Shown: positions 35,592 to 63,498 of the stretch, in pieces
Numbering within the stretch: the stretch's first letter is position 1
Layout: each line of letters begins with the position of its first letter
Assembly: GCA_024275165.1 (NCBI GenBank)
Contig: JAJRZQ010000015.1
Coordinates: 35,324 to 99,323 of the forward strand
Direction of reading: 5' to 3'
Origin: a bacterium
GTDB lineage: Bacteria > SAR324 > XYD2-FULL-50-16
Length of the DNA stretch: 64,000 nt
Position numbers and translations under genes: made by a program
Notes under the pieces: generated by a model
Told to the model about the DNA's origin: nothing
Databases searched by the model: none
The model's input: the letters and a program-made list of their open reading frames with translations, nothing else

Positions 35592-36461
35592 ATGAATCAT
35601 TATCAAAAAGCCCATCTATGGATGGGTTTGACCGCGGGCTTTTCCCTCTGGAGTTTTCAAGAACTAAGCCGCTTCATTTTAAGCGCCGAGGGAGAACTCA
35701 ATAATTGGGCTATTGCCCTGCAGGGTTTTTTAATCTGCGGTTTATTGGGAGCCATCACCTTAGGTCAAGAGGGATATTTACAGCAAAACTTTTCCCGCAT
35801 GATCCAAGGAATCCGCATAGGGCTGTTTGCCGGCGGGTTTGGCGGCATGGTGGGTTTTTGGCTCATCGACCGCATCTTAAGCACCAGCGGCGAACTCTCC
35901 GTTCTTTTTAAGGCCTTAATCTCCAGTCAGAGCTGGCTCCTCCCCTTCTTGATGATCGGGGTCAGCTTCGGACTGCGAGACCAGAGCAACCTGCAATTGC
36001 AACGAGGCCTATTCGCGGCCATTGCCACCTCCTTGTTCGGCGCCTTCACCCTGCCTTTAATTTCTCTACTCCCTCTGCGGCCCCCTCACGCCGAAGACTT
36101 AACCCTATTCCTGCTCGGTTTTGGTTTTATCCAAATCATGGGTTACTTCGGGCAATTTCGCAGAACAGAGTGGATCAAAAGCCTCAACGGCGAGCTGGAG
36201 GGGCTCGAATTCGAGTTGCACAAGCATATTCACTATCTCGGCACCCAAAACTTAGACCGCATTAACCTGAGCGGGTACCCGGATATCAATTCCACCCATG
36301 CCAAGCTGATCAAATATCATTGTGGTTACAGCCTGTTAGATAACGACCCCTTTGGCCGTACTTGGCTGAATTTTCGCAGTGTCACCGAGCAACCCCTTAA
36401 AAATGGGGATATCATCAAGGTGGGCACGGCTGTCTTTCAATACCTGAAAAAAAAACCATGA
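35592..36461 (+). CDS. Polytopic membrane protein with C-terminal FHA domain
   Basis: 289 residues: about six membrane helices between residues 8 and 185, then a soluble tail of ~90 residues resembling an FHA domain (IHYLGTQNLDRINLSGYPDI, STHAKLIKYHCGYSLLDND, LNFRSVTEQPLKNGDIIKVG). The phospho-threonine reader core is weaker than in the next protein: the Arg of GR.....I is missing, so phosphopeptide binding is uncertain. Strong AAGGAG precedes the start. Coupled to the next gene by an ATGA overlap (36458-36461). Its partner kinase is not in the window. Confidence 0.75.
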   Translation: MNHYQKAHLWMGLTAGFSLWSFQELSRFILSAEGELNNWAIALQGFLICGLLGAITLGQEGYLQQNFSRMIQGIRIGLFAGGFGGMVGFWLIDRILSTSGELSVLFKALISSQSWLLPFLMIGVSFGLRDQSNLQLQRGLFAAIATSLFGAFTLPLISLLPLRPPHAEDLTLFLLGFGFIQIMGYFGQFRRTEWIKSLNGELEGLEFELHKHIHYLGTQNLDRINLSGYPDINSTHAKLIKYHCGYSLLDNDPFGRTWLNFRSVTEQPLKNGDIIKVGTAVFQYLKKKP

Positions 36462-37318
36462 AACGCTTAAGCCTTGTTCTTGCCTTTACCTCCGCAGGCC
36501 GCCTGTTCGCCCAAGAGGCCGGTAGCAATGACCTTGCCAACCCGGGGTTTCAAATTTATCTCGCCTTGCCGATGCTTTTTGTCGCTTTAGGCACTCTAGT
36601 CCTGGCCCGTAGGGCCTATAACCCAAAAACCCATAAAGTTTTGGGCTTTAAAACCATCACCCCTCATTTGCCGGAGCAGTTTTTCCCCATTGACGCCACG
36701 GTGGTTACGATGGAACCGGTGGTTCAGGCTTTAGCCGGTAAAAAAATTCATGTTTACAGTAATTTGTCTAAAATCTCTCTCACCCACAAAAGCACGGGGA
36801 TTTTTTTGGAAGAGAAAAATTACAAAATTTCAATCTTAATCAACCGAAGGCGCACCCGCCGTTGTTTCCTACAAGAGGGAGACATTATCGACATGGGTGA
36901 ACTCACCCTGCTTTTTTCCTCCGGACAACAAGAAAGCTTCAACAACCTTGAAAGCACAGCCCCCCCCGAGAGCGGGCAAAGCATCCCTCGCAGCAAACGG
37001 GCGCAGACGAAAATGATCGGCACCTACCCAACTTTAATCCCCGCAGATTCAAGAAAAAAGACCTTTTATCTCACAAAAAATATTATTTATATAGGGCGCA
37101 GCGAAATGAATGACCTGGTCAGCAAAGCCAAGGGCATCTCTCTGCGCCATTCTAAAATTGAAAAGGTAGCGGGCCGTTATAAAATTTTAGATTTAGAGCG
37201 GGGGAACGGTACCTTTGTCAATGGCAGGCGAATTGAAACCAAGTTTCTCAAAGACGGGGATGTAGTGAGCTTCGAGTCTGTTAAATACACCTTTAGTTGG
37301 AGCGGGAAGTCCCGTTAG
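36458..37318 (+). CDS. Membrane-anchored FHA-domain protein
   Basis: 286 residues. A signal-like N-terminus and a membrane helix near 33-50 (IYLALPMLFVALGTLVLA) are followed by a beta-rich domain and, from about 205, a canonical FHA domain: IYIGRSEMNDLV, ISLRHSKIEKV, YKILDLERGNGTFVNGRRIETKFLKDGDVVSF. All phosphothreonine-binding residues (GR, S..H, NG) are present. It overlaps the preceding FHA gene by 4 bp, so the two are made together right behind ftsZ. A role in division or envelope signalling with a Ser/Thr kinase is plausible but unproven. Confidence 0.83.
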   Translation: MKRLSLVLAFTSAGRLFAQEAGSNDLANPGFQIYLALPMLFVALGTLVLARRAYNPKTHKVLGFKTITPHLPEQFFPIDATVVTMEPVVQALAGKKIHVYSNLSKISLTHKSTGIFLEEKNYKISILINRRRTRRCFLQEGDIIDMGELTLLFSSGQQESFNNLESTAPPESGQSIPRSKRAQTKMIGTYPTLIPADSRKKTFYLTKNIIYIGRSEMNDLVSKAKGISLRHSKIEKVAGRYKILDLERGNGTFVNGRRIETKFLKDGDVVSFESVKYTFSWSGKSR

Positions 37319-49356: not shown

Positions 49357-50316
<960 letters not shown>

Positions 50317-50328
50317 AGAGCATAGAGA

Positions 50329-51513
50329 ATGAAGATTCACGAGTATCAAGCCAAACAAATTATTGCCCAATATGGCGCTACCGTCCCCCAGGGGCACATG
50401 GCCCAATCGGTGGAAGAAGCGGTAAAAATCGCTAAAAACCTAGGCGGCCCGGTACAGGTAGTCAAGGCGCAAATTCATGCCGGTGGCCGGGGAAAGGGCG
50501 GCGGAGTCAAGGTATCTAAGGGCCTGGACGCGGTCAAGGAAAGCGCGACCGCTATTTTGGGCATGCAGTTGGTCACCCACCAGACCGGGCCTGGAGGCCA
50601 AAAAGTCAAAACCCTGCTGATTGAAGAGGGAATGGACATCAAAAAGGAGTTTTACTTCTCTATTTTGGTGGATCGGGCAAGCAAAAAAATCGTGATGATT
50701 GCCAGCCGAGAAGGCGGTATGGAGATCGAAGAGGTCGCGGAAAAAACCCCGGAAAAAATCCTAAAAGAATGGATCAACCCCGTAACCGGTCTCAGGCCCT
50801 TTCAAGTCAGCCGCTTAGCCTATGCTTTGGGGTTTGACCAATACGGCAAAGCAGCGGTTAAGGGAGCGAAAAAACTATTTACCAGCCTCTATCAAACCTT
50901 TATTCAAGAAGATTGCGACCTCTTGGAAATCAATCCCTTGATTGTTACCAAAGAGGGCCGAGTTCTGGCGCTAGACTGCAAAATGAGCTTTGATTCCAAT
51001 GCTCTATATCGCCACCCCATGACGGTTGAACTGCGTGATTTGGATGAAGAAGACCCCGCCGAGGTGGAAGCGAGCCAACATGACTTAAACTTCATCAAGC
51101 TTGAGGGTGAAATCGGCTGCATGGTCAATGGGGCCGGTTTCGCCATGGCCACCATGGACCTCATCCATGATTACGGGGGAACCCCAGCCAACTTTTTGGA
51201 TGTCGGCGGCACCGCCGATGAAGAGCGGGTGGAAAACGCCTTCCGCATCATCACCAAAGACGAAAAAGTCAAATGCATCTTGATCAACATCTTTGGCGGG
51301 ATCGTCCGCTGCGATATGATCGCTTCCGGCGTGGTCAAGGCATTTAAGTCCGTTGCCTTAAAAATCCCTGTGGTGGTCCGCTTAGAAGGAACCAACGCGA
51401 AAAAGGCGCATGAAATCATCAATCAATCCGGTTTGGAAGGCAAATTGGTGATGGTCGATGGTTTTGGCCCCGCAGCCCAAAAAGCCGTCGAACTCGCGAA
51501 GGCGCAAGGATAA
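50329..51513 (+). CDS. sucC: Succinyl-CoA synthetase beta subunit
   Basis: ATP-grasp subunit of the enzyme making ATP (or GTP) with succinate from succinyl-CoA. 394 residues. [22 protein letters not shown] at the start, [19 protein letters not shown] (nucleotide-binding loop), [15 protein letters not shown], and [17 protein letters not shown] near the C-terminus. Between mdh and sucD, spacing 12 and 17 bp. All motifs intact. Confidence 0.97.
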
Positions 51514-51530
51514 ACACAGGAGAACAAACC

Positions 51531-52403
51531 ATGACCGTACTATTGAATAAAGAGACCAAGCTCATGGTCCAAGGTATTACGGGCTCCCAAGGGAGCCTGC
51601 ACGCCAAGGGCTGTAAAGATTATTGCGCGACCCAGCTCGTTGCCGGGGTAACCCCAGGTAAAGGCGGCAGCTCGCACGACGGCACCCCCGTTTACAACAG
51701 CGTCCGCGACGCGAAAGAGGCCAGCGGGGCCAACTGCTCGATGATCTTCGTTCCCCCTCCCTTTGCGGCGGACGCGATTTTAGAAGCCATTGAGGCGGAA
51801 ATCGAACTGGTAGTAGCCATTACCGAAGGGATTCCCGTATTGGACATGATTCCCGTGGCCGCCGCCTTAAAAGGCGGCAAGACCAGGCTCATCGGCCCCA
51901 ATTGCCCCGGGATCATCAGCCCTGGAGAAGCCAAGGTAGGAATCATGCCCGGGCACATTCACAAAAAAGGCAACATCGGCTTGGTCAGCCGCTCTGGAAC
52001 CCTAACCTATGAAGCGGTGGCTCAGTTGGGCGCGAAAGACCTCGGCAATTCAACCTGCATCGGCATTGGGGGCGACCCCATTAACGGCACCAACTTTATC
52101 GATGCCTTGCGCCTCTTTCAAGATGACCCGGAAACCGAAGGCATCGTGCTGATCGGGGAGATTGGCGGCACGGCAGAAGAAGAAGCGGCAGAGTTTTACA
52201 AAGAATATGTCAAAAAGCCGATGATCGCTTACATCACCGGTCAAACCGCGCCTCCAGGGCGACGCATGGGCCATGCCGGGGCGATTGTATCGGGTTCCGG
52301 CGGCACCGCGGCAAGTAAAATCAAAGCCTTGAACGCCGCGGGCATCGCCGTGGCCCGCACTCCCGCAGATATTGGAGATACGATGCTACAGGCCTTAAAG
52401 TAG
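51531..52403 (+). CDS. sucD: Succinyl-CoA synthetase alpha subunit
   Basis: CoA-binding subunit, 290 residues. [19 protein letters not shown] at the N-terminus, [44 protein letters not shown] and the active-site histidine in [16 protein letters not shown] near 245. Followed 7 bp later by an intrinsic terminator, so the mdh-sucC-sucD operon ends here. Confidence 0.97.
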
Positions 52404-52410
52404 TCAATAC

Positions 52411-52436
52411 AAAAGGAGGGCCGACCCTCCTTTTTT
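52411..52436 (+). terminator. Intrinsic terminator after sucD
   Basis: AAAAGGAGGG (52411-52420), loop CCGA, CCCTCCTTTT (52425-52434), then TT to 52436. Ten paired bases with a T-tract. Confidence 0.88.
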
Positions 52437-52448
52437 CCCCCTCTTGCC

Positions 52449-54269
52449 ATGAAGAAGCTTTGCTTAGCCCTCTCCCTCCTTGTTCTTTTTACCGCCTGCG
52501 ATCAGCCCAAAAAAAAGGCCCCAACCCTCCAACCCAAAACCCTGAAAAGCTACCCCGCCACGGCGAGCCTACCTGCGGGGCTAAAATGGCGGACCAACGA
52601 CGAGCCCCCCTTTGCCGACCAAGCGGCAAAAAAGGGAGGGGTATTTCATACAACGATCAATAGCTTCCCTCTTACCTTTCGCTTGTATGGGCCAAACTCG
52701 GCCAGTGGCGGTTTTGTCGGTTACAATCGACGCTTTGGCATGTGGGGGCTCACCAGCCTGCACCCTTCCAGCCACCAAATCACCCCCTTGCTGGCAACCC
52801 ATTGGGCGGTATTAAGCGACAATCGTACTGTTTTTTATCGTTTGGATAAAAACGCGAAATGGAGCGACGGGGCCCCCCTGACCGCGGACGATTACCTGTT
52901 CGCTTATGAATTCATGCAATCGCCTCATATCCAGGCCCCCTTTTACAACCAATATGCCCGCGACCACTTTGCCTCGGTAGAAAAGGTGGACGACTACACC
53001 CTCAAAATGGTGAGTGTCAAACCGAGCTGGCGCATCCTGTACGAACTCGATTTAAACCCCCTGCCTCGACATAAAATCCAATTAGACAAAAACTGGGTTA
53101 AAAAGACCAACTGGACCCCCAATGTAACCGCTGGGCCTTATGTCTTGAGTAAATTTAAAAAGGGAAAATCCATCACCTTTACCAAGGTCAAAAATTGGTG
53201 GGGGAAGAATCAACCTCGCTTTCAAGGGCTCTATAACTTCGATACCTACCAAATCGAGGTGGTACGCACCAGGGAACTCGAATTTGAACTCTTTAAAAAA
53301 GGAAAGCTTGATCTTTATTCGGTGGGCGATGGCGCCCGTTGGGCAAAACAGACTGATTTCGAGTCCATCAACAAGGGCTGGGTCCATAAACAAAAAATTT
53401 ATATCGACTCCCCCGCTGGGGCAAGAGGAATCTTTTTCAACTTAAAAGACTCGATTTTACAAGATGTAAAAATCCGCCAGGCCTTGACTCATTGCTTGGA
53501 CTTTCTCACCATCAACAAAAAATATCTCTATGGTTTGGAACGACGGCAAGAGCATTTCTTCGATGTCTACCCCCCCTACCGAGCCCCCAACGCCAAAGCG
53601 GCAGACTTCAACCTCAAAAAAGCGAATCAGCTCTTAGATCAAGCGGGCTGGACAAAACGAAACGAGGCGGGAATCCGCACCAAGCAAGGCCAACCCCTGC
53701 AAATCACCATTTCGGTGGGAACCGAGCAATGGATCAAATACCTCACCTTTTTCAAAGAAATCACCAAAAAGGCGGGGATTGAGGTGCTGATTAAAAAGCT
53801 CGATGGAGCGGCTCTGTACAAATCCTTTAATGAGCGGAGCTATCAAGCCTTGGTGGTGGTTTATGGAGGGGGCAACTTCCCCAACCCCCGGCAATTTTTG
53901 CATTCGGAGAATGTAGCCAAGGGCACCAACAACCTCTTTCAATTTGCCAACCCCAGGGCGGATGAATTGATTGAGATTTACGAGTTCGACTTGGATGAAA
54001 AAAAGCGCATTGCCGCTATCTTTGAGCTTGAAAAGATCATCAAGGAGCAGGCCTTGATGGTGCCTTTTTGGCGGCGCGATCACGAGCGATTGCTCTGGTG
54101 GCGCTACCTAAAGGGGCCACCTGGTTTTGTCTCTCCTTCCGGGCTGGACCTCGACGCGCTCTGGTTTGATAAAAAAGAAAAACAGACCCTCCAAACCGCC
54201 CAAAAAGAGGGTCAAAGCCTGCCCCGGCTCCCCCTGGAGGCCGACCCCTTTGGATTGCGAAAAAGGTAA
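52449..54269 (+). CDS. Peptide-type ABC transporter substrate-binding lipoprotein
   Basis: 606 residues. A lipoprotein signal ends LFTA-C (C17). The mature protein is an SBP_bac_5 (OppA/DppA-type) binding protein: PLTFRLYGPNS, GLTSLHPSSHQITPLLATHW, VFYRLDKNAKWSDGAPLTADDYLFAYEF, GPYVLSKFKKGKSI and VKIRQALTHCLDFLTIN. The long extended layout and NSFPLTFRLYGPNSA resemble YejA-like proteins of the microcin C/long-peptide importers. No permease or ATPase genes follow; partners must be elsewhere. It stands directly after the TCA operon terminator. Confidence 0.9.
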   Translation: MKKLCLALSLLVLFTACDQPKKKAPTLQPKTLKSYPATASLPAGLKWRTNDEPPFADQAAKKGGVFHTTINSFPLTFRLYGPNSASGGFVGYNRRFGMWGLTSLHPSSHQITPLLATHWAVLSDNRTVFYRLDKNAKWSDGAPLTADDYLFAYEFMQSPHIQAPFYNQYARDHFASVEKVDDYTLKMVSVKPSWRILYELDLNPLPRHKIQLDKNWVKKTNWTPNVTAGPYVLSKFKKGKSITFTKVKNWWGKNQPRFQGLYNFDTYQIEVVRTRELEFELFKKGKLDLYSVGDGARWAKQTDFESINKGWVHKQKIYIDSPAGARGIFFNLKDSILQDVKIRQALTHCLDFLTINKKYLYGLERRQEHFFDVYPPYRAPNAKAADFNLKKANQLLDQAGWTKRNEAGIRTKQGQPLQITISVGTEQWIKYLTFFKEITKKAGIEVLIKKLDGAALYKSFNERSYQALVVVYGGGNFPNPRQFLHSENVAKGTNNLFQFANPRADELIEIYEFDLDEKKRIAAIFELEKIIKEQALMVPFWRRDHERLLWWRYLKGPPGFVSPSGLDLDALWFDKKEKQTLQTAQKEGQSLPRLPLEADPFGLRKR

Positions 54270-54271
54270 AA

Positions 54272-54937
54272 ATGCGTTTGATTCCCTTGATCTTGGTTTT
54301 GCTCGGCGCCTTGGGTTGCACCACGGCTAGAGATCGCGACCAAGAAACGAATCTGTGGCAATCTTACGAGTTTAAATCAGGGCAGATCGAAGAGGCCTTT
54401 AACCAAAGGTTTCGCACCGCGAGCCTCTACCTCGACAACCAGATGGTCTTAGAGGTAGACGCGCTCTACCGAGATCGGGCCTATCGCAGCTTTTTTCAAG
54501 GGGACTTAGCCAGGCTTTATTTTTATAGCGCGAAGCAAAAAGCGCAAATCTGGGCCAAGGAACAAGAAGAATATGAAAACAGCTATGCCTTTATTGCCGT
54601 GATCTATTCTGGAGGGTACAAGGCCCCCGACTTCGGCCACCCCTCCAGCCATTGGCAGGCCTTTTTAAAAGACGACGAGGGGGATCTCTTGCGCCCTTCC
54701 TCGGTCAAACGACTCTCGAAAAAAAGCAAAGAAGCGATTTTTTTAGAAAAATATTTCCGCCCTCTCGACCGCTGGGGCGAGGTTTATTTGCTTCAATTCC
54801 CTAAGCTCCATCGCTCGATTCCTCAAGGAAGCGGGGCAATGGAACTGATCTTTTCAGGGTTAAAGGGGCAAGCTCGCTTGCAATGGAAGGACTTAAGCCT
54901 TTTCACCCAAGAACGAAATCGTTTTTTTATTGATTGA
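54272..54937 (+). CDS. Uncharacterised lipoprotein
   Basis: 221 residues with a lipoprotein signal (PLILVLLGALG-C, C16). The mature part is alpha/beta and rich in Tyr, Arg and Phe (RTASLYLDNQMVLEVDALYRD, RLYFYSAKQKAQIWAKEQEEY, EVYLLQFPKLHRSIPQG), with the pattern of a beta-sandwich domain. I do not recognise the family. It starts 2 bp after the binding-protein gene, so co-transcription and possibly a shared pathway are likely. Confidence 0.68.
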   Translation: MRLIPLILVLLGALGCTTARDRDQETNLWQSYEFKSGQIEEAFNQRFRTASLYLDNQMVLEVDALYRDRAYRSFFQGDLARLYFYSAKQKAQIWAKEQEEYENSYAFIAVIYSGGYKAPDFGHPSSHWQAFLKDDEGDLLRPSSVKRLSKKSKEAIFLEKYFRPLDRWGEVYLLQFPKLHRSIPQGSGAMELIFSGLKGQARLQWKDLSLFTQERNRFFID

Positions 54938-55090
54938 GGGCAGGGGATCAAAAATCTCTTCTCTCCTTGACATTCTAGTCTAAATCAAAGAAAATCCAGC
55001 ATTAATGCCACAGCGCAGAGTTTTTTTTATTCTGCTGAATCAGCCTTGCGAGCTTAGGCCGCAGGCTGTCAACCCCAGCCCGGAACAGCG

Positions 55091-56925
55091 ATGAGCAAGT
55101 TAAAAGAACGCTACCTCAAAGGCCCCAACTACTTTCATCCTGAAAAGCCAAGCGCGGTTGGGAGTCGCAACAGCCTGTATCGAGAAGATCGGAACGAGTA
55201 CCAAGAATCCGCTCTCTTAATCAATGAAGAGGTAGATAAAATCCTGACTCATGTAGCCGCTAAGCTGCCCCCCGAAGTGGCGAGCAAAGTGGAAGTCATG
55301 GGGGGAATTAAATCCAAACTGCACAACTACTACAACCAGACTTATCAAAACATGCTGAACCGCTATTTGGTTACGGCAGAAGATGAACTGGCAAAAAGTA
55401 CCGCGACCTCGTTGATAAAGAAGAGTACATTCAACTCCATAAATATACCCCCCGCTTAGTCAGCGACCTGATTGACCAACTGGCCGAACCCAATGTGTTC
55501 ACCACCAATGATGTAGAACGCTCTATCGCCTCGACCTATGTCAGCCTGCAAGACAACCTCGAACGCAGTGTCAAGGCGCTGGAAAAAAAGACCAACAGCC
55601 TACTCCTGCAACGCACGGATGTGGGAAGCTTCATCACCAGCGGCAAAGCCTTCAATGTGGTGAAGTGCAGCTTTAAAAACAACCAGCAAAAGCCCAACAC
55701 GGTGGTGGATGTCAAGATGGCGGTGAACATCTTAGACGCGGAATTGATCAACCCCATCTATCACTATCAAAAGCCGATTCAAGACCTCTTAAAGGAGGTG
55801 GTTTCCAATCACATCCATGAAGAAATCGACCGCAAAGTCGAAACCATCAACCTCTCTTTACAAAAAGACGGGAAAGCGAAACTCGACGGCAAAACCGAAC
55901 TCTTTGAACGACTCAAAAGCTTAGAAGGTTATTTAGGTTTTGAAGAAGTGGATAACGATGAGCAGTCGAAACGCTATGAATACATGTCCAAGCAGTTGAT
56001 CGATTCTTTGGACGCCACGACTTTTGAAATCCCCAGCCATGAATGGGACCCCACCAATGTGCGAGAAAACCTAAAAAGCATTCTCGACGCGGAGCATGTG
56101 CACAGCCGTGGTTTCAATCAGGTGATCAGCATGCTGACCACCATCTTGGACAACTACAAACTCGGCTATCAGTACATCAACAACTTAAAAAATGCCCGAG
56201 ATTGCAACATCATGGAATACAGCCCTGCCGATCAGGGAGAATTGCCCGATGAGACCTTCTCGATTAAACTGAGCTATACTGATTCAGATCAACTCCGCGA
56301 GCAAAGAAAGGCCTACAACGCCCAAACAGACGCGTTAAAAAAACACATTGAGCAGGCGGCGCAGGTCGTGGAAAAGCTTTATTTAAAACACGCCGCGGCG
56401 GACAAGCAAACCACCTATGGCGACTTAGCCGGCAAATACCTGGCAAAAGAAGGAGAGCTGCCCCGAGAATGGAAGGAACTGGTTTTTAGCGAAGCGAAAA
56501 ACCTAGAAAAGGTGACCTCCAATCAAGAATTCGTACGCGATATGAAGGCGACCTTTACCTTGATGGAAACTCAATTGAGTCGCGCCTTCGGCAACAACTT
56601 CACCCCTGAGCGACAAATTTCTTCAGAACGGATTGCCTTTTTAAAAGAGCAGTTCTCTCGCTTTACCGCTCAGATCAATCCCCACCACCTGCAACAGGGC
56701 TTGGTGATTGAAATGGATGTAACCAGCGTCAAAAAAAATCCGACCACCTTAAAGAATATTTCGAATGTACTCAATGAGTTACTCTTTAATATCTCGAAGA
56801 AATTTGTAGACCAAAGCATTCAAGACTTTGAAGACAAAAACAAAAAGGAGGCCGCTCCTTTGAGTGAACGCTTCAACCATGTCTTGAACAAAATGGAAGA
56901 CAGCCTAACGGGAATGGGAGTTTAA
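55091..56925 (+). CDS. Large cytoplasmic alpha-helical protein, interrupted by a -1 frameshift
   Basis: Two adjoining frames form one protein. The first frame (55091-55459, 122 aa) drifts into nonsense after GCA-AAA; re-reading one A of the run 55393-55397 continues the protein in the next frame to 56925 ([22 protein letters not shown]...), about 611 residues. Deletion of one A is the simplest explanation; a programmed -1 shift is less likely. The protein has no signal or membrane helix and is helix/coiled-coil rich, with [35 protein letters not shown] and a C-terminus similar to filament-type proteins. A relation to spirochaete cytoplasmic filament protein CfpA is an idea only, from length and style. 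No known function. Confidence 0.6.
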
Positions 56926-56982
56926 TCGCAAACAAGCTTCACCCCTTGCGCAAAGCTTCTCGCGCGCAATGATAAAAAAAAC

Positions 56983-57004
56983 CCGCGTAAAGCGGTTTTT
57001 TTTT
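56983..57004. terminator. Bidirectional intrinsic terminator
   Basis: A-run, CCGC (56983-56986), loop GTAAA, GCGG (56992-56995), T9 (56996-57004); an A-run precedes on the left. Serves the plus-strand gene ending 56925 and the convergent minus-strand gene ending 57085. Confidence 0.75.
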
Positions 57005-57084
57005 ACCTTTGCCTTGCTGGAAACAAGCAATATGTCCAAAAGGGAAATACCATAAAGCCGCTAAAGCTTGCGCAGACAATCGAC

Positions 57085-58539
57085 TCAAGGCGCGGAGTTC
57101 ACCCGTATCTTTTTACCGTTGAGTTGATAGGTCAAAATCATGGCCTCTAGTTTTTGGATATTTTTTGGCGGAGAGAAAAAAAGAATCTGAAAATCCAACT
57201 GCCGCTTAAACCCCCTGCCTAAAGTAATTTCGCTAGCCCGAGCGCGGTTGTTTTGCTCTCGCAACAGCTCTTTTTTGCTCAGGGTACTCAATTGACGATA
57301 AGATAATATTTTTCCCGCATAGGCCTTCGCTTCACTGACTTTACGATTGCTTTTATCGTACAGGGCGCCGCTCAACAGCACCGCGCGCACCAGGTCGTCT
57401 TTCGCGTGCAGGTTTTTGAGCGTCCCCTGCAAGGCGAAAAGCTTCCCCTTCAGGTGAGGGTTGTCAATCTCTTTTCCCTCAATGGGCTGTAAAATCGAGA
57501 GTTTTGGGACTCGGCTTGGAGTGCGCTGGGGTTGACTTGGCTTGGGTTGCAAATTGAGCTTGGCCAAAACGCGGCCTTGGTAATACAGCAGAGGATCATA
57601 ATATCGATAACCTCCCCACCCCAAAAGGCCTAAAAAACACAAAAAGAAGGCCACCTTCCAATAACCCCCTCGGCTTGGCTTTTTATTTTTTTTCTTTGAT
57701 TTTTGAACCTCCTCTTGAGGTGATAAAGAAGCCGAAAGCACTAGTTCCTCATCAAGGTCGGGGAACTCCGAATTCTCATCTGTAGATAAAAATAAACTTT
57801 TATCTTCTAAACTGAGTTCTTCACCCAGTTCACCCAGTTCCTCATCACCGAGGTGTACCGACTCCATGTATTGGTGATCTGCCTCTGTATTGGCGTCTCC
57901 ATCCGCCTCTTGCGCAAAAGCGTCTTCTGCGAAATCACCAAGGGAATCCGTTTCTTCATCTTCTTCCAGGCCCGTAATATCGGGGAGTTCGCCAAGATCC
58001 TCCGCATCTTCGATGTCGGGCACGGCACCAAAGGGTGCCTCATCCTCTTCCGTAAAGGTGTCATCCAACTCGCCCAGCTCTTCATGGTCCTCTAATTCTT
58101 CCAGTTCCCCGAGTTCTTCATGATCTTCCAATTCATCAAAATCATCGGTTACCGCAATGGGCTCCTTGAGTTCTATTTCTTCTTCCAACTCCTCTAGGCC
58201 GCCTAGACCGCCGGCTTCGTCTGTTTCAGGGGCGAACTGGGTTTCTACCGCCTTTTGGGGTTCAATCGAGCTGACCTGCCCTGCCTGATCCAATTCAAAG
58301 TATTCCCCGCACTGGCCGCAATGGGCTTGAATAACCGAGTCGGTAAAGCGAGTTTTTGGGATGGCGTATTGGGTTTCACAAGCGGGGCATTGAGCGATAA
58401 CCCGCTCCGGGGCGTCTCCCCCTTTTTTAACCAGAATCGGCTTGTGGCAATTGGAACAGCGGACAAAGGATTCACCGGTGGGCACCTTGTCTGCGTCAAT
58501 TTCATAAAGGGTACTGCAATGACTGCACTGAATCTGCAT
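57085..58539 (-). CDS. Zinc-ribbon membrane protein with acidic repeats and DUF3426-like domain
   Basis: 484 residues from ATG 58539, GGGAG upstream. Two MJ0042-type zinc ribbons: CSHC...CSNC near residues 5-35 and CPAC...CGQC near 52-80. A very acidic region of ~160 residues follows, with a duplicated 12-residue unit ELEDHEELGELE. A membrane helix lies near 310-330 (WKVAFFLCFLGLLGWGGY), then a periplasmic beta-rich domain (about 375-484; LKGKLFALQGTLKNLHAKDDL, VRAVLLSGALYDKSN) resembling DUF3426. This domain order is common in deltaproteobacteria; function unknown. Confidence 0.78.
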   Translation of the reverse strand: MQIQCSHCSTLYEIDADKVPTGESFVRCSNCHKPILVKKGGDAPERVIAQCPACETQYAIPKTRFTDSVIQAHCGQCGEYFELDQAGQVSSIEPQKAVETQFAPETDEAGGLGGLEELEEEIELKEPIAVTDDFDELEDHEELGELEELEDHEELGELDDTFTEEDEAPFGAVPDIEDAEDLGELPDITGLEEDEETDSLGDFAEDAFAQEADGDANTEADHQYMESVHLGDEELGELGEELSLEDKSLFLSTDENSEFPDLDEELVLSASLSPQEEVQKSKKKNKKPSRGGYWKVAFFLCFLGLLGWGGYRYYDPLLYYQGRVLAKLNLQPKPSQPQRTPSRVPKLSILQPIEGKEIDNPHLKGKLFALQGTLKNLHAKDDLVRAVLLSGALYDKSNRKVSEAKAYAGKILSYRQLSTLSKKELLREQNNRARASEITLGRGFKRQLDFQILFFSPPKNIQKLEAMILTYQLNGKKIRVNSAP

Positions 58540-58858
58540 GAACTCTCCCAAGGGCGAACGCTGGCGTTCGTCTGTTTTTATTATCTTTACTCTAATCTTC
58601 GCGTTTGATCAATTCCAGCGCTAAAAAAGTTTTCACAAGCTGGAAACAACTACCTTTGATCCGCGTCTCCGCTTTCTAAAGGCTTGCGAAAGCAAGGGTG
58701 ATCTGGTTAGATAGAGAAAAGAAAAGACTATACCTCCCTTGAGGATGAAGAAAAAAATAGTTTTTTTAGAAAAAAGGCCTTTTTTGTGCATAACGATGGA
58801 CAAATAAATATCCCAAACTTGAATAGATCACCTTTTTTACTTGTCCGGGAGAAGCGAT
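58540..58858. other. Divergent 319-bp spacer
   Basis: No coding frame or RNA gene found. A perfect 16-bp palindrome AAAAAAGGCCTTTTTT (58770-58785) lies in an AT-rich tract that is likely a promoter region for the secreted protein at 58859; candidate -10 TAAATA stands near 58804 but no clear -35. The zinc-ribbon gene is transcribed away on the left. Confidence 0.4.
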
Positions 58859-59809
58859 ATGATGCGACCCATTCAACGCCTTTGCGCCATTGTGGCCTTA
58901 TTGGCATTCACTTTGCCCGGGGCGGAGCTTTTAGCTCAAAGCGTTTCCACCCAAGGGAACATTATCCGCAACATTGTCGTCATTCCCGATGAAAATGAGG
59001 ATTATATCCTTCAAATAAAAGGCATTTTTACACCTCAAAGCCTTTCGCAGGTTCGCATGCGGCACAAGGCAAACAGCACCAAAATGACCCTGATCCTGCC
59101 AAATACTTTGCTGGATCCAACCAACATGAAACGAAAAGTGGTCAGTTTCGATGAAAGCCTGCCCTTAGAATCGGTGAACACAACAGAAGGCTATAACCGC
59201 AAAAGCGAAAATCCAAATTTTCAAACCACTTTAGAGATTCTTTCGCGCAAGGTACTGCGCACCGAACTGATCGAGCCCATCACCAGCAGCCTTTTACAAT
59301 TTCGCTTAGTGGACGCGGAAAAACAAAACAGAAACGCGAAAAACATGTTCAGCGACCGGGCCTTAAAAAGCGCGCGAGATCGACAAGAACAATTTTCCGC
59401 CAAAAGACAACAAGAGCTAGAAGCGCAAAAGCAACAAACCGCCTCGAAAACTCGCAGTGACGCCAATGAAATTATCAAGCAATACCAAAAACCCGTGGTT
59501 TTGCAATTGAGCCTCATCAATGGAACGGGAAACCCCAAAAAAGGGTACCAACTCTCCGTATATCTCGGGAACATGCAAAAAAAGTCCTTAGAGCGCCGCT
59601 TGGGTCTGAAAATGGATGTGGTCAATATCGCCAACGCCAAACGACCAGAGATTAAAGAAAGCACCATCTTTTATAAAGAAAATTACTTAAAGGCCGCCTT
59701 GACTTTAGCGCAACGCATTGGCGGGAAACAACGAGTCATGCCCATGCAAAATCAACACGAAAAAATTGGGGTTGATGTCGAAATTTACCTCGGCACGAAT
59801 TACCGCTAA
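58859..59809 (+). CDS. Secreted protein with N-terminal AMIN-like and C-terminal LytR_C-like domains
   Basis: 316 residues from ATG 58859 with GGGAG upstream; the next codon is also ATG. A signal peptide is clear (QRLCAIVALLAFTLPGAELLA). Residues ~30-95 look beta-rich (RNIVVIPDENEDYILQIKG, KMTLILPNTLL), of AMIN type. A charged coiled region (LKSARDRQEQFSAKRQQELEA) follows. The C-terminal ~100 residues have the LytR_C pattern: VLQLSLINGTGNPKKGYQL, then VVNIANAKRPEIKES and ALTLAQRIGG. LytR_C and AMIN both occur in cell-envelope proteins. It is followed by the next secreted protein 20 bp later. Confidence 0.65.
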   Translation: MMRPIQRLCAIVALLAFTLPGAELLAQSVSTQGNIIRNIVVIPDENEDYILQIKGIFTPQSLSQVRMRHKANSTKMTLILPNTLLDPTNMKRKVVSFDESLPLESVNTTEGYNRKSENPNFQTTLEILSRKVLRTELIEPITSSLLQFRLVDAEKQNRNAKNMFSDRALKSARDRQEQFSAKRQQELEAQKQQTASKTRSDANEIIKQYQKPVVLQLSLINGTGNPKKGYQLSVYLGNMQKKSLERRLGLKMDVVNIANAKRPEIKESTIFYKENYLKAALTLAQRIGGKQRVMPMQNQHEKIGVDVEIYLGTNYR

Positions 59810-59829
59810 TTACCCACCGGGAACAAGCT

Positions 59830-61332
59830 ATGAAAAACAGCATTAAACAAATTTTTCTCGCCTCCCTGGCCTTGGTTGCGTTGGGCCTAGGAGGGCTCAA
59901 CGCCATGCCAAAGTACACCGATAAGCAAACAGCGATTGCTTTGGCTAAGGTATTGGATAAGGGGAGCTTTGGTCGTTATACCGTGGCTTCTACTTATGTG
60001 CAAAACGCGAGCAACAAGGATTATTACATCTCCGTGATTCTTTCCAACGGGGAAAGTCAAAAGTGGAACCTCAAGCAGATTTATAAATGGAGCCGCGACG
60101 ACAAATTGACCTTGAGCAACAACCGTACTCTGCTTTTTTTAGACCCCAAAGACAGCCGATTTGTCATCTTGGATAAAAATGAATTCCATCGCCAAGCTCT
60201 AAAAGCCAATGTCTACATCAAAACCTTTGGCCCCGGCGACCCTTTAGAAGGGAGGCAGTTTCGCTTTCACATCAAGGCCTTTAATTTGATCAGCCCTCGT
60301 GAAACAGCCTTCGGCAGAAACAAAATGGGCAGTAAATATCGTTATATCATTGATCTTTATAACGGGACTAAGGAATTGCTCACCTTTGAAGATGCGTACC
60401 ACATCATGAAAAACAACCTCCTCAAGGTAGAAAAGCAATCCAAACAAACCACCTTTGGCCGTGCCTATCATGTAACCAAAATCTTAGCTTACCCCAAAGG
60501 GAAAATCGAAAACGGGGTCGCCCAATTTGGGGTCGAGGTCCAGTTTGACCAAAACATCCAACTCACCGGGGAGCAGTTCCCCATGGAGATCTATGAAGAT
60601 GTAACCTACAATCCCCGCACCAAAAGAAGAGAGGCCCGCTTTGTAATGGATTTAACCATCCCCAATGCGGAAAAACTTGCCGAAGTCGCCCCGATTCATA
60701 GCCTGGAGTACCTGTACAACATCCGCATCGCGAAAAGCACAAAGTACCCGAAACGCTTGTACTTGAGGGCCAATTTCAATCCTGAGTTTTTAGATATTCC
60801 CCCCGTGGTCTACAAAAACAGCGACAACTCGGTTTACATCAACTTTTTTACCATGCTGGATCAATCTGTTTTGACCCGCTCCACCCTGTTGCATAAGAAA
60901 AAACTCGAAAGAGTGAAGAAAAAAACCAAACGAGCCATCCGGGTAAAAAAGGAAATCAAACGAGATTCCGATTATGGAAGGGCTTTTGTAGCCGCCCTGG
61001 AATCGCAAAAGCAGGTTCAGATCATTCAAGGGACTCCAGCAAAGGTAGAAAAACTTTTGGAAGGAATCCGCCAGTTTGAGGAAGCTGCCCTCTATGCAGA
61101 AACGGATCAGCAGTTGTATGCTTCATTAAACAAGAGAAACGAATTGCGAGAGAAAGTGATTCTTCTCACCTTAGAAGAGGTGGAAGAAACCCTAGGACAG
61201 CCTGACCTCGATAACAATAAGGTAAAAGTACTCTTAGATCAATTGGACCTAGCCGAGTCTTTCAGCGGCAATGAGCAATCTTTGCGTAATATTGTCGAAT
61301 TGAGAGAAAAGTTGATCGCTTTACAGAAATAG
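59830..61332 (+). CDS. Large secreted protein of unknown function
   Basis: 500 residues with a signal peptide (IFLASLALVALGLGGLNA). The first ~380 mature residues are beta-rich, with three related stretches around DYYISVILSNGESQKWNLKQIYKWS, KYRYIIDLYNGTKELLTFEDAY and RRFEV-like blocks, suggesting repeated domains. A basic segment (KKKLERVKKKTKRAIRVKKEIKRD) then leads to an acidic helical C-terminus (LEEVEETLGQPDLDNNKVKVLLDQLDLAES). No family recognised. It is co-transcribed with the LytR_C-like gene and followed by an intrinsic terminator; cheZ comes next. Confidence 0.68.
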   Translation: MKNSIKQIFLASLALVALGLGGLNAMPKYTDKQTAIALAKVLDKGSFGRYTVASTYVQNASNKDYYISVILSNGESQKWNLKQIYKWSRDDKLTLSNNRTLLFLDPKDSRFVILDKNEFHRQALKANVYIKTFGPGDPLEGRQFRFHIKAFNLISPRETAFGRNKMGSKYRYIIDLYNGTKELLTFEDAYHIMKNNLLKVEKQSKQTTFGRAYHVTKILAYPKGKIENGVAQFGVEVQFDQNIQLTGEQFPMEIYEDVTYNPRTKRREARFVMDLTIPNAEKLAEVAPIHSLEYLYNIRIAKSTKYPKRLYLRANFNPEFLDIPPVVYKNSDNSVYINFFTMLDQSVLTRSTLLHKKKLERVKKKTKRAIRVKKEIKRDSDYGRAFVAALESQKQVQIIQGTPAKVEKLLEGIRQFEEAALYAETDQQLYASLNKRNELREKVILLTLEEVEETLGQPDLDNNKVKVLLDQLDLAESFSGNEQSLRNIVELREKLIALQK

Positions 61333-61363
61333 ACTTCTTCAACCTCAACCTACAATGGATCCA

Positions 61364-61403
61364 CCCGGCTTTTTTGATCCCAAAAAGCCGGGATTCTTTT
61401 TTT
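61364..61403 (+). terminator. Intrinsic terminator before cheZ
   Basis: CCCGGCTTTTT (61364-61374), loop TGATCCC plus one base, AAAAAGCCGGG (61382-61392), then ATTC and a T7 run to 61403. An 11-bp stem. Confidence 0.85.
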
Positions 61404-61407
61404 AGCG

Positions 61408-61422
61408 ACTCCCTAAGGGAGT
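61408..61422. promoter_or_regulatory. 15-bp palindrome upstream of cheZ
   Basis: ACTCCCT-A-AGGGAGT (61408-61422), 7-bp arms around one base, 17 nt before the cheZ ATG. It contains AGGGAG, which is too far from the ATG to be its ribosome binding site, so a protein operator or a leader hairpin is more likely. Confidence 0.4.
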
Positions 61423-61439
61423 AAATACAGAGTTTCTCC

Positions 61440-62681
61440 ATGACCGCTCAAACACATAACTGCACTTTAACCCAAGAAGAGTTTCTAGACAGCTTTATCC
61501 AGCTTTATCACGCGATTAAAGACTATGAGGAACTCTTAGTCAGCTTCGCCGATGAAACACAGCTCGACGAGCAAACCATCAAGCGGGAGATGCGTAAACG
61601 GATCAACCAAATGCAATTTGATGGGGTGAGTACCAAATCCATGGAAATGATCGGGGCCTACCTGCGATTTTCCCTTAAAAACTTCCAAGGCGATAAACTG
61701 AGTTTTGCCGTGCCCGATGAGCCCACGGATGACTTTTTCGCGGCCAATGAGGGCTTGCTCCCCACCGCGAAGGCCATTGCGAAGGCCGAGCAGGGTTTAC
61801 TGGAGGTACAAGAAAAAGTCTATTTTTTAACTCGCCTGCTCCCCCCCAGAAATACCGAACGCCTCAGGCTGCTTTTAAAATCCATCTCCAGTTTATTCAA
61901 GGCGATTATTCGCCAGGATTTTGTAGATTTAGAAGGGCATATCAGTCATATCAACCACATCACCGCCAATCGGGATAGCTATTTTCTCATCAACGAGATT
62001 GGGCGCACCGTAAGGGAAATCCATGACAACTTACAAGACTTTTCGGCTCATGTTCCCGTAGAAAGCTTAGATCAACAGGTCATGGATGATATGCCCGACG
62101 CGATTGACAAGCTCAACTTGGTCATCCAAAGGATGGAAACAGCGGCCAACTCGACTTTAGACCAAGTAGAAGACCTACTGGATCGAAACGCCCACCGCCA
62201 AGAACACAACTCCGAATTGCTGCAAAGCTGCCAGCAAATGGAAACCAAATTAGCCGAAATTAAGGAAAAGCACCCTGAAATCGAGGGGCTCAATGAACTG
62301 GAAGATATATTAAAAAACAACCTCATCACGGAGCTCCATCAGCGAGCTGAGGAATTGAGAAGTGATGAAGGGGTTTTCTTTGAAATCATCGGCAACCAAT
62401 CCTTTCAGGATCTCACCGGCCAAACCATTAAAAAGATCATTAAATTTATCGAACAACTGGAATTAAGCCTCCTGAGCATCTTGCAGAAATACAGCAACCA
62501 ACTGCCCCAAGGAACGGATTCGACAACAACGCCCCAAAAAGCGGAGCTATCCCCCTTAGTGGGAACCGCGGAAGAAGGGTTGATTTTAGAAGGCCCGAAA
62601 GACAACGCGGCAGAGCGAAGCACCGGTCACGCCACCAGCCAGTCGGCAATCGACTCCATGTTGGCCGAATTCGGCTTTTAG
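61440..62681 (+). CDS. cheZ: Chemotaxis protein phosphatase CheZ, long form
   Basis: Dephosphorylates CheY-P to set the motor bias. 413 residues, about twice E. coli CheZ. The catalytic core is clear: four-helix bundle with IGRTVREIHDNLQDF and INKLNLVIQRMETAANSTLDQVE-type helices, and QSFQDLTGQTIKKII, where D324 and Q328 correspond to the catalytic pair. The C-terminal SQSAIDSMLAEFGF is the CheY-binding peptide. The N-terminal ~180 residues are an extra helical domain. Placed next to FlaG and other likely flagellar genes on the other strand; end overlaps the next gene by 4 bp. An earlier palindrome may control it. Confidence 0.93.
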   Translation: MTAQTHNCTLTQEEFLDSFIQLYHAIKDYEELLVSFADETQLDEQTIKREMRKRINQMQFDGVSTKSMEMIGAYLRFSLKNFQGDKLSFAVPDEPTDDFFAANEGLLPTAKAIAKAEQGLLEVQEKVYFLTRLLPPRNTERLRLLLKSISSLFKAIIRQDFVDLEGHISHINHITANRDSYFLINEIGRTVREIHDNLQDFSAHVPVESLDQQVMDDMPDAIDKLNLVIQRMETAANSTLDQVEDLLDRNAHRQEHNSELLQSCQQMETKLAEIKEKHPEIEGLNELEDILKNNLITELHQRAEELRSDEGVFFEIIGNQSFQDLTGQTIKKIIKFIEQLELSLLSILQKYSNQLPQGTDSTTTPQKAELSPLVGTAEEGLILEGPKDNAAERSTGHATSQSAIDSMLAEFGF

Positions 62682-63129: not shown

Positions 63130-63498
63130 TTAGCTGGTGATATCGAGGGTAAGCCCCGGATGCTGTTTGAAATTATTGGCAAGCCGAACAAAATCAGGCT
63201 CGGGAATCGTTTTGATCACTTCCCCGCTGACCCGATCAATGATATCCACATAATCGTTTCCATCCTTAACCACTCGGTGAAAACGCAACTCGCGCCATTC
63301 AATCGATCGTTCGAGTAAATCTTCTAAGGCTTGCTTGGCCTGAACGGCTTTTTTCGTTTGCAACTCACGCAATTGCTGGGCGATGTGGTTGACCTGCTCT
63401 TGGGCCTTGTGTCCCGCTTCTTGATTTTGTTCTTTCTGCTCTGCCTTGCGCAAAGCGCTGGGAGTCGTGTTTTGGTTCGAGAGTCTTTGGGTTTTCAT
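63130..63498 (-). CDS. flaG: FlaG family flagellar protein
   Basis: 122 residues. The C-terminal half matches FlaG: LRFHRVVKDGNDYVDIIDRVSGEVIKTIPEPDFVRLANNFKQHPGLTLDI, with the diagnostic (V/I)D..(T/S)GE(V/I)(I/V)..IP and the final GL.LD. FlaG usually precedes fliD and influences filament length. The N-terminus is a charged helix. Co-oriented with an upstream coiled-coil gene (14 bp gap); hook-filament genes may follow beyond the window. Confidence 0.82.
   Translation of the reverse strand: MKTQRLSNQNTTPSALRKAEQKEQNQEAGHKAQEQVNHIAQQLRELQTKKAVQAKQALEDLLERSIEWRELRFHRVVKDGNDYVDIIDRVSGEVIKTIPEPDFVRLANNFKQHPGLTLDITS

Follow-up and report, generated by a model that had tools for sequence, protein, structure and literature searches.

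In the 64,000-nucleotide stretch of bacterial DNA analysed here (the window), the region 55091-56925 is read in two successive frames, which raises the question of whether these frames are parts of one gene, which protein such a gene would encode, and how and when its reading frame came to be broken.

Two reading frames meet at a run of five A

Reading the window for ORFs gave an ATG-initiated ORF of 122 amino acids at 55091-55459 in the 0 frame, with its stop codon at 55457-55459, and a stretch in the -1 frame that is open from 55387/55396 to 56925 and comprises 509 codons plus a stop. At the local base composition an open stretch of 509 codons would arise by chance with p ~3e-11, and this C-terminal frame has one of the highest codon-usage scores of the window (0.432); its earliest start codon is a GTG at 55495. 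A codon alignment of 44 CfpA copies (identified below) places the break in the A5 run at 55393..55397 (+ strand), a site that in the 43 other copies consists of two codons, mostly Lys-Lys, in an uninterrupted frame. Past the break, the 0 frame of the window copy encodes 20 unrelated residues before its stop. Both frames are thus present as described in the initial annotation, made from the sequence alone, in which a 122-residue frame derails at 55393-55397 and the -1 frame runs to 56925.

The joined protein is identified by sequence as CfpA

Both parts matched NCBIfam NF040882.1 (cytoplasmic filament protein CfpA), a curated equivalog model with a cut-off of 500 bits. The N-terminal part of the gene, 102 codons up to the break (55091..55396, + strand), covers model positions 4-96 (E 4.9e-38), and the C-terminal part (55396..56925, + strand), which consists of 509 codons and a stop codon read in the -1 frame, covers positions 97-591 (E 2.2e-125). 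Scored separately, the parts reach 131 and 420 bits, both under the cut-off of 500, whereas the 611 amino acids joined by reading through the break score 566.5 bits in a collinear match that aligns residues 10-583 with positions 4-591 of 605. A Treponema vincentii CfpA shares 37-58% identity with SAR324 copies. By sequence comparison, 55091-56925 carries a frame break but otherwise encodes an ordinary orthologue of an already known filament protein. The likeness to CfpA that the initial annotation had offered as a guess is confirmed by the equivalog score together with the identity to T. vincentii CfpA, and the protein, there called unfamiliar, belongs to a curated family, NF040882; a Pfam search returned no family at cut-off for any CfpA copy tested. 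The annotation had also read the two parts as one protein, and had held that separate genes would be indicated if no homologue joined the halves in a single frame. The parts occupy adjoining NF040882 positions, and homologues as a rule encode the two halves without a change of frame, which confirms the reading as one protein.

Two relatives, a SAR324 orthologue and CfpA of T. vincentii, were modelled with AlphaFold2 at modest confidence (mean pLDDT 70 and 68, respectively; pTM <0.5). Both models are mostly helical, with two or three strand elements in between, and since the two input alignments overlap, the models are not independent. The earlier annotation described the protein as coiled; these models of relatives mix helix and strand and are not purely coiled. 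A sequence search of the PDB gave one chance-level match (mis12, E 0.033) and no solved relative; in the fold search of the PDB, no Foldseek match fell under E 0.6, and the best VIA Z, 7.0, came from long helices only, so that the fold search is uninformative and lends no support to a filament architecture.

One unbroken reading frame, a trait of an intact cfpA gene rather than of descent from the family, is absent in the window copy. Translation of the present sequence would yield a 122-residue fragment, with about 500 residues lost. Because the break maps within a long helix predicted in the AlphaFold2 models of relatives, this product would be an end fragment.

Three CfpA paralogues in two families of SAR324

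Judged by its nearest genomes with named records (best 80 of 361 matches), the host most likely belongs to the SAR324 / 'Candidatus Lambdaproteobacteria' lineage and not to Spirochaetota, the group to which CfpA has been described as exclusive (PMC2776988, PMC3296230). The genome, a 47-contig draft of 2.69 Mb that is 98% complete, carries two further CfpA copies, both intact (604 and 621 aa), to which the residues at the junction of the window copy align without gap or insertion. We searched for CfpA across two phyla, covering 52 SAR324 genomes and a sample of 149 spirochaete genomes. Within SAR324, CfpA is found in 10/10 genomes of family f1 and 10/10 of family f4, nearly always in three copies; the two f1/f4 genomes in which just two copies were found are 73% and 79% complete. 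It is absent from all 31 f3 genomes and from the single f2 genome among the 52 searched. The spirochaete sample contains CfpA in 64 of 149 genomes, with one full-length copy each, and 4 of 20 spirochaete genomes picked for having CfpA contain two copies.

A tree of 63 proteins resolves the SAR324 sequences into three groups, each containing one branch of f1 and one of f4, and gathers the spirochaete sequences in one clade. Since each group holds both branches, the triplication most likely occurred before f1 and f4 split. By its position in the tree, the window copy is a member of orthologue group 2 (OG2) of the three paralogues found in f1 and f4; its terminal branch is long (0.99-1.21), and that of this genome's own OG3 copy, which is intact, is nearly as long. 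CfpA may either have passed between SAR324 and spirochaetes or predate both. The three copies are scattered in f1, and in f4 the OG3 and OG1 genes lie ~4 kb apart (L050:4884-10794 with the next gene; also L046 and L047), separated by a gene for a 484-aa unknown protein and one for a PEP-utilising enzyme. Genomes of f3 (such as G011-G013) keep flagellar genes and have no CfpA, a pattern that would reflect either a lineage-wide loss or a gain in f1 and f4 only.

The locus is conserved

Upstream of cfpA lie genes for mdh, sucC, sucD, a solute-binding protein and a likely lipoprotein of 221 aa (49357..54937, + strand), identified as conserved by synteny. The downstream neighbours, also conserved (57085..62681; synteny, Pfam, NCBIfam), are an MJ0042 zinc-ribbon gene on the - strand followed on the + strand by genes for unknown proteins of 322 and 500 aa and by cheZ. 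The order mdh-sucC-sucD-solute-binding protein-lipoprotein-cfpA-zinc ribbon-322 aa-500 aa-cheZ recurs piecewise in relatives, each orthologous locus showing several of these neighbours in the same order. On the strength of this conserved gene order, we take the window locus to be the ancestral third CfpA copy and not a recent duplicate; tree and synteny together rule out that the broken copy is the product of a recent duplication. Among the neighbours of CfpA in other SAR324 loci, no dedicated partner gene was found.

A candidate sigma-70 promoter of cfpA (TTGACA-17-GAAAAT, 54967..54995, + strand) matches 10/12 of the consensus, in a window where such matches are no more numerous than chance. 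Between cfpA and the opposed gene, a CCGC/GCGG hairpin flanked by A and T runs (56976..57005) may form a two-way terminator; it was seen by reading the sequence and missed by the terminator scan, which makes it a weak candidate.

Several other genes of the window were noted as well. Those for the 322-aa (58841-59806) and 500-aa (59830-61329) proteins, for which no Pfam or NCBIfam match was found, are adjacent and lie near cheZ in SAR324 relatives too, and the 500-aa protein shows 51-59% identity across the family. CheZ itself (61440-62681) has an additional N-terminal part of ~180 residues, and a FlaG-like gene lies near the cfpA locus on the opposite strand (63130-63498). Elsewhere in the window, two adjacent genes (35592-36458 and 36401-37315) each encode a C-terminal FHA-like / YscD-type domain and are probably a tandem duplicate.

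The break is very young or confined to the consensus

In the codon alignment, each of the remaining 43 copies (41 from relatives and two from this genome) is in frame at the break, and no inner stop was found in any CfpA match of the SAR324 or spirochaete search. The N-terminal part of the window copy retains 42 of the 45 positions that are invariant among nine orthologues; downstream of the break, it retains 87 of 110 orthologue-invariant residues, as against 78 of 101 in the intact OG3 copy that this genome also carries. Its identity to the G001 orthologue is 49.6%, and the intact orthologues of G001 and G002 are 49.4% identical to each other. When neutral drift was simulated at 0.05 changes per site, a stop arose in 94% of runs; the 509 downstream codons hold zero. 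Given a unique break, retained constraint and the lack of any stop, we conclude from these sequence comparisons that the break either arose very recently or is a feature of the assembled consensus alone. An old pseudogene is ruled out by the single lesion, by the 509 codons free of stops and by constraint like that of intact copies.

Alternative causes of the break

Two causes would fit a break of this kind. The chance that the assembled consensus is in error here and that the living organism has an intact gene falls a little short of even. A single lesion within a homopolymer, normal constraint on the remaining frame and the status of the genome as a 47-contig draft all favour such an error, as does a check of 20 other suspicious window ORFs for splitting, in which no family was broken across two frames and none proved a split gene. 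Against an error speak the lack of any second one of this kind in the window and the length of the run, since five bases is short for an indel error of short reads. A real and very recent loss-of-function mutation, leaving a young pseudogene tolerated since two CfpA copies remain, is likewise nearly, if not quite, an even prospect. In favour of such a mutation are the two paralogues that the genome keeps intact and the presence of one lesion with no decay, but nearly all f1 and f4 genomes retain three intact copies, so loss is apparently not tolerated for long.

Programmed -1 ribosomal frameshifting (or transcriptional slippage), an option that the initial annotation had kept, would provide the cell with a short and a full-length CfpA; we consider this very improbable. 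A lysine codon on the A5 run could re-pair one base back, and selection downstream is intact, as a programmed shift would have it. Slippage of a single codon on A5 is, however, expected at background level only, and transcriptional slippage as known requires runs longer than this. The zero-frame sequence GCA AAA AGT (55391-55399) is not an X XXY YYZ heptamer, an inverted repeat was searched for close downstream and not found, and 55385-55485 has no stable RNA fold (z 0.13 against shuffles, for folds free of pseudoknots). Sequence reading, repeat search and fold score here agree with the annotation, which had seen no clear slippery heptamer plus stem; with the break also lacking from all relatives examined (43/43 other copies, two of them from this genome, in frame), they disfavour its option of a programmed shift. 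That the parts are two separate genes, neighbours by chance, has next to no probability: each of the two frames does have its own stop, but the parts align next to each other on one model, the second part has no start codon close to where it begins, and the homologues, in one frame everywhere, refute this reading.

Function and significance

In Treponema, the cytoplasmic filaments have been described as consisting of one protein, CfpA (PMC3398590), and run along the cell in the cytoplasm (PMC3398590, PMC2776988). A T. denticola cfpA mutant has no filaments, condensed chromosomes and long filamentous cells (PMC3398590). Taken together, we think it very probable that the window holds an OG2 CfpA with a unique break, either very recent or present in the consensus only, whose intact form would build filaments as in Treponema. 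Intact SAR324 CfpA would polymerise in the cytoplasm into filaments along the cell, and these would assist chromosome handling and cell division. The three SAR324 paralogues probably build one filament system jointly, or parts of one, perhaps as mixed filaments; if the break is real, the strain would be without one of three subunits, the other two being intact. Among the papers searched, none dealt with cytoplasmic filaments or a cytoskeleton in SAR324. A link of CfpA to flagella was considered and rejected, as fliF is present in 49/52 SAR324 genomes, including the f3 family that has no CfpA.

Up to now CfpA has been tied to the unusual cell body of spirochaetes. A conserved trio of CfpA copies in SAR324 genomes with flagellar genes, next to a sister family with flagellar genes and no CfpA, separates CfpA both from the spirochaete body plan and from flagella, and the CfpA filament thereby becomes open to comparative test. 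Only tentatively do we propose the wider view, which is possible but on balance doubtful, that the filament of the two SAR324 families needs all three subunits, that the triplication is older than the divergence of the families and that this cytoskeleton is not restricted to spirochaetes but common to two phyla. The point of interest is the conserved CfpA trio outside spirochaetes rather than the frame break, which has little significance beyond a caution to check reads before interpreting it.

Comparison with known filament systems

The literature groups CfpA with crescentin, FilP and Ccrp in a loose functional class of intermediate-filament-like proteins (PMC6599971, PMC3296230). No sequence family in common with CfpA was found for these proteins. 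Their class is marked by one long central coiled-coil rod, and the CfpA models, at their modest confidence, show strands between helical parts; the relation is one of analogy, not membership. The closer comparison is with CfpA of Treponema. Here the host is a member of SAR324 and not a spirochaete, there are three diverged paralogues versus one, and the SAR324 copies score lower against NF040882 (566-918 bits) than the spirochaete copies (~787-1257). The C-terminal tail of the SAR324 protein differs, and the window copy has its frame break. The window protein is nevertheless collinear with CfpA of Treponema across nearly its full length, above the curated cut-off, and the predicted order of secondary-structure elements is alike in T. 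vincentii CfpA and the SAR324 orthologue.
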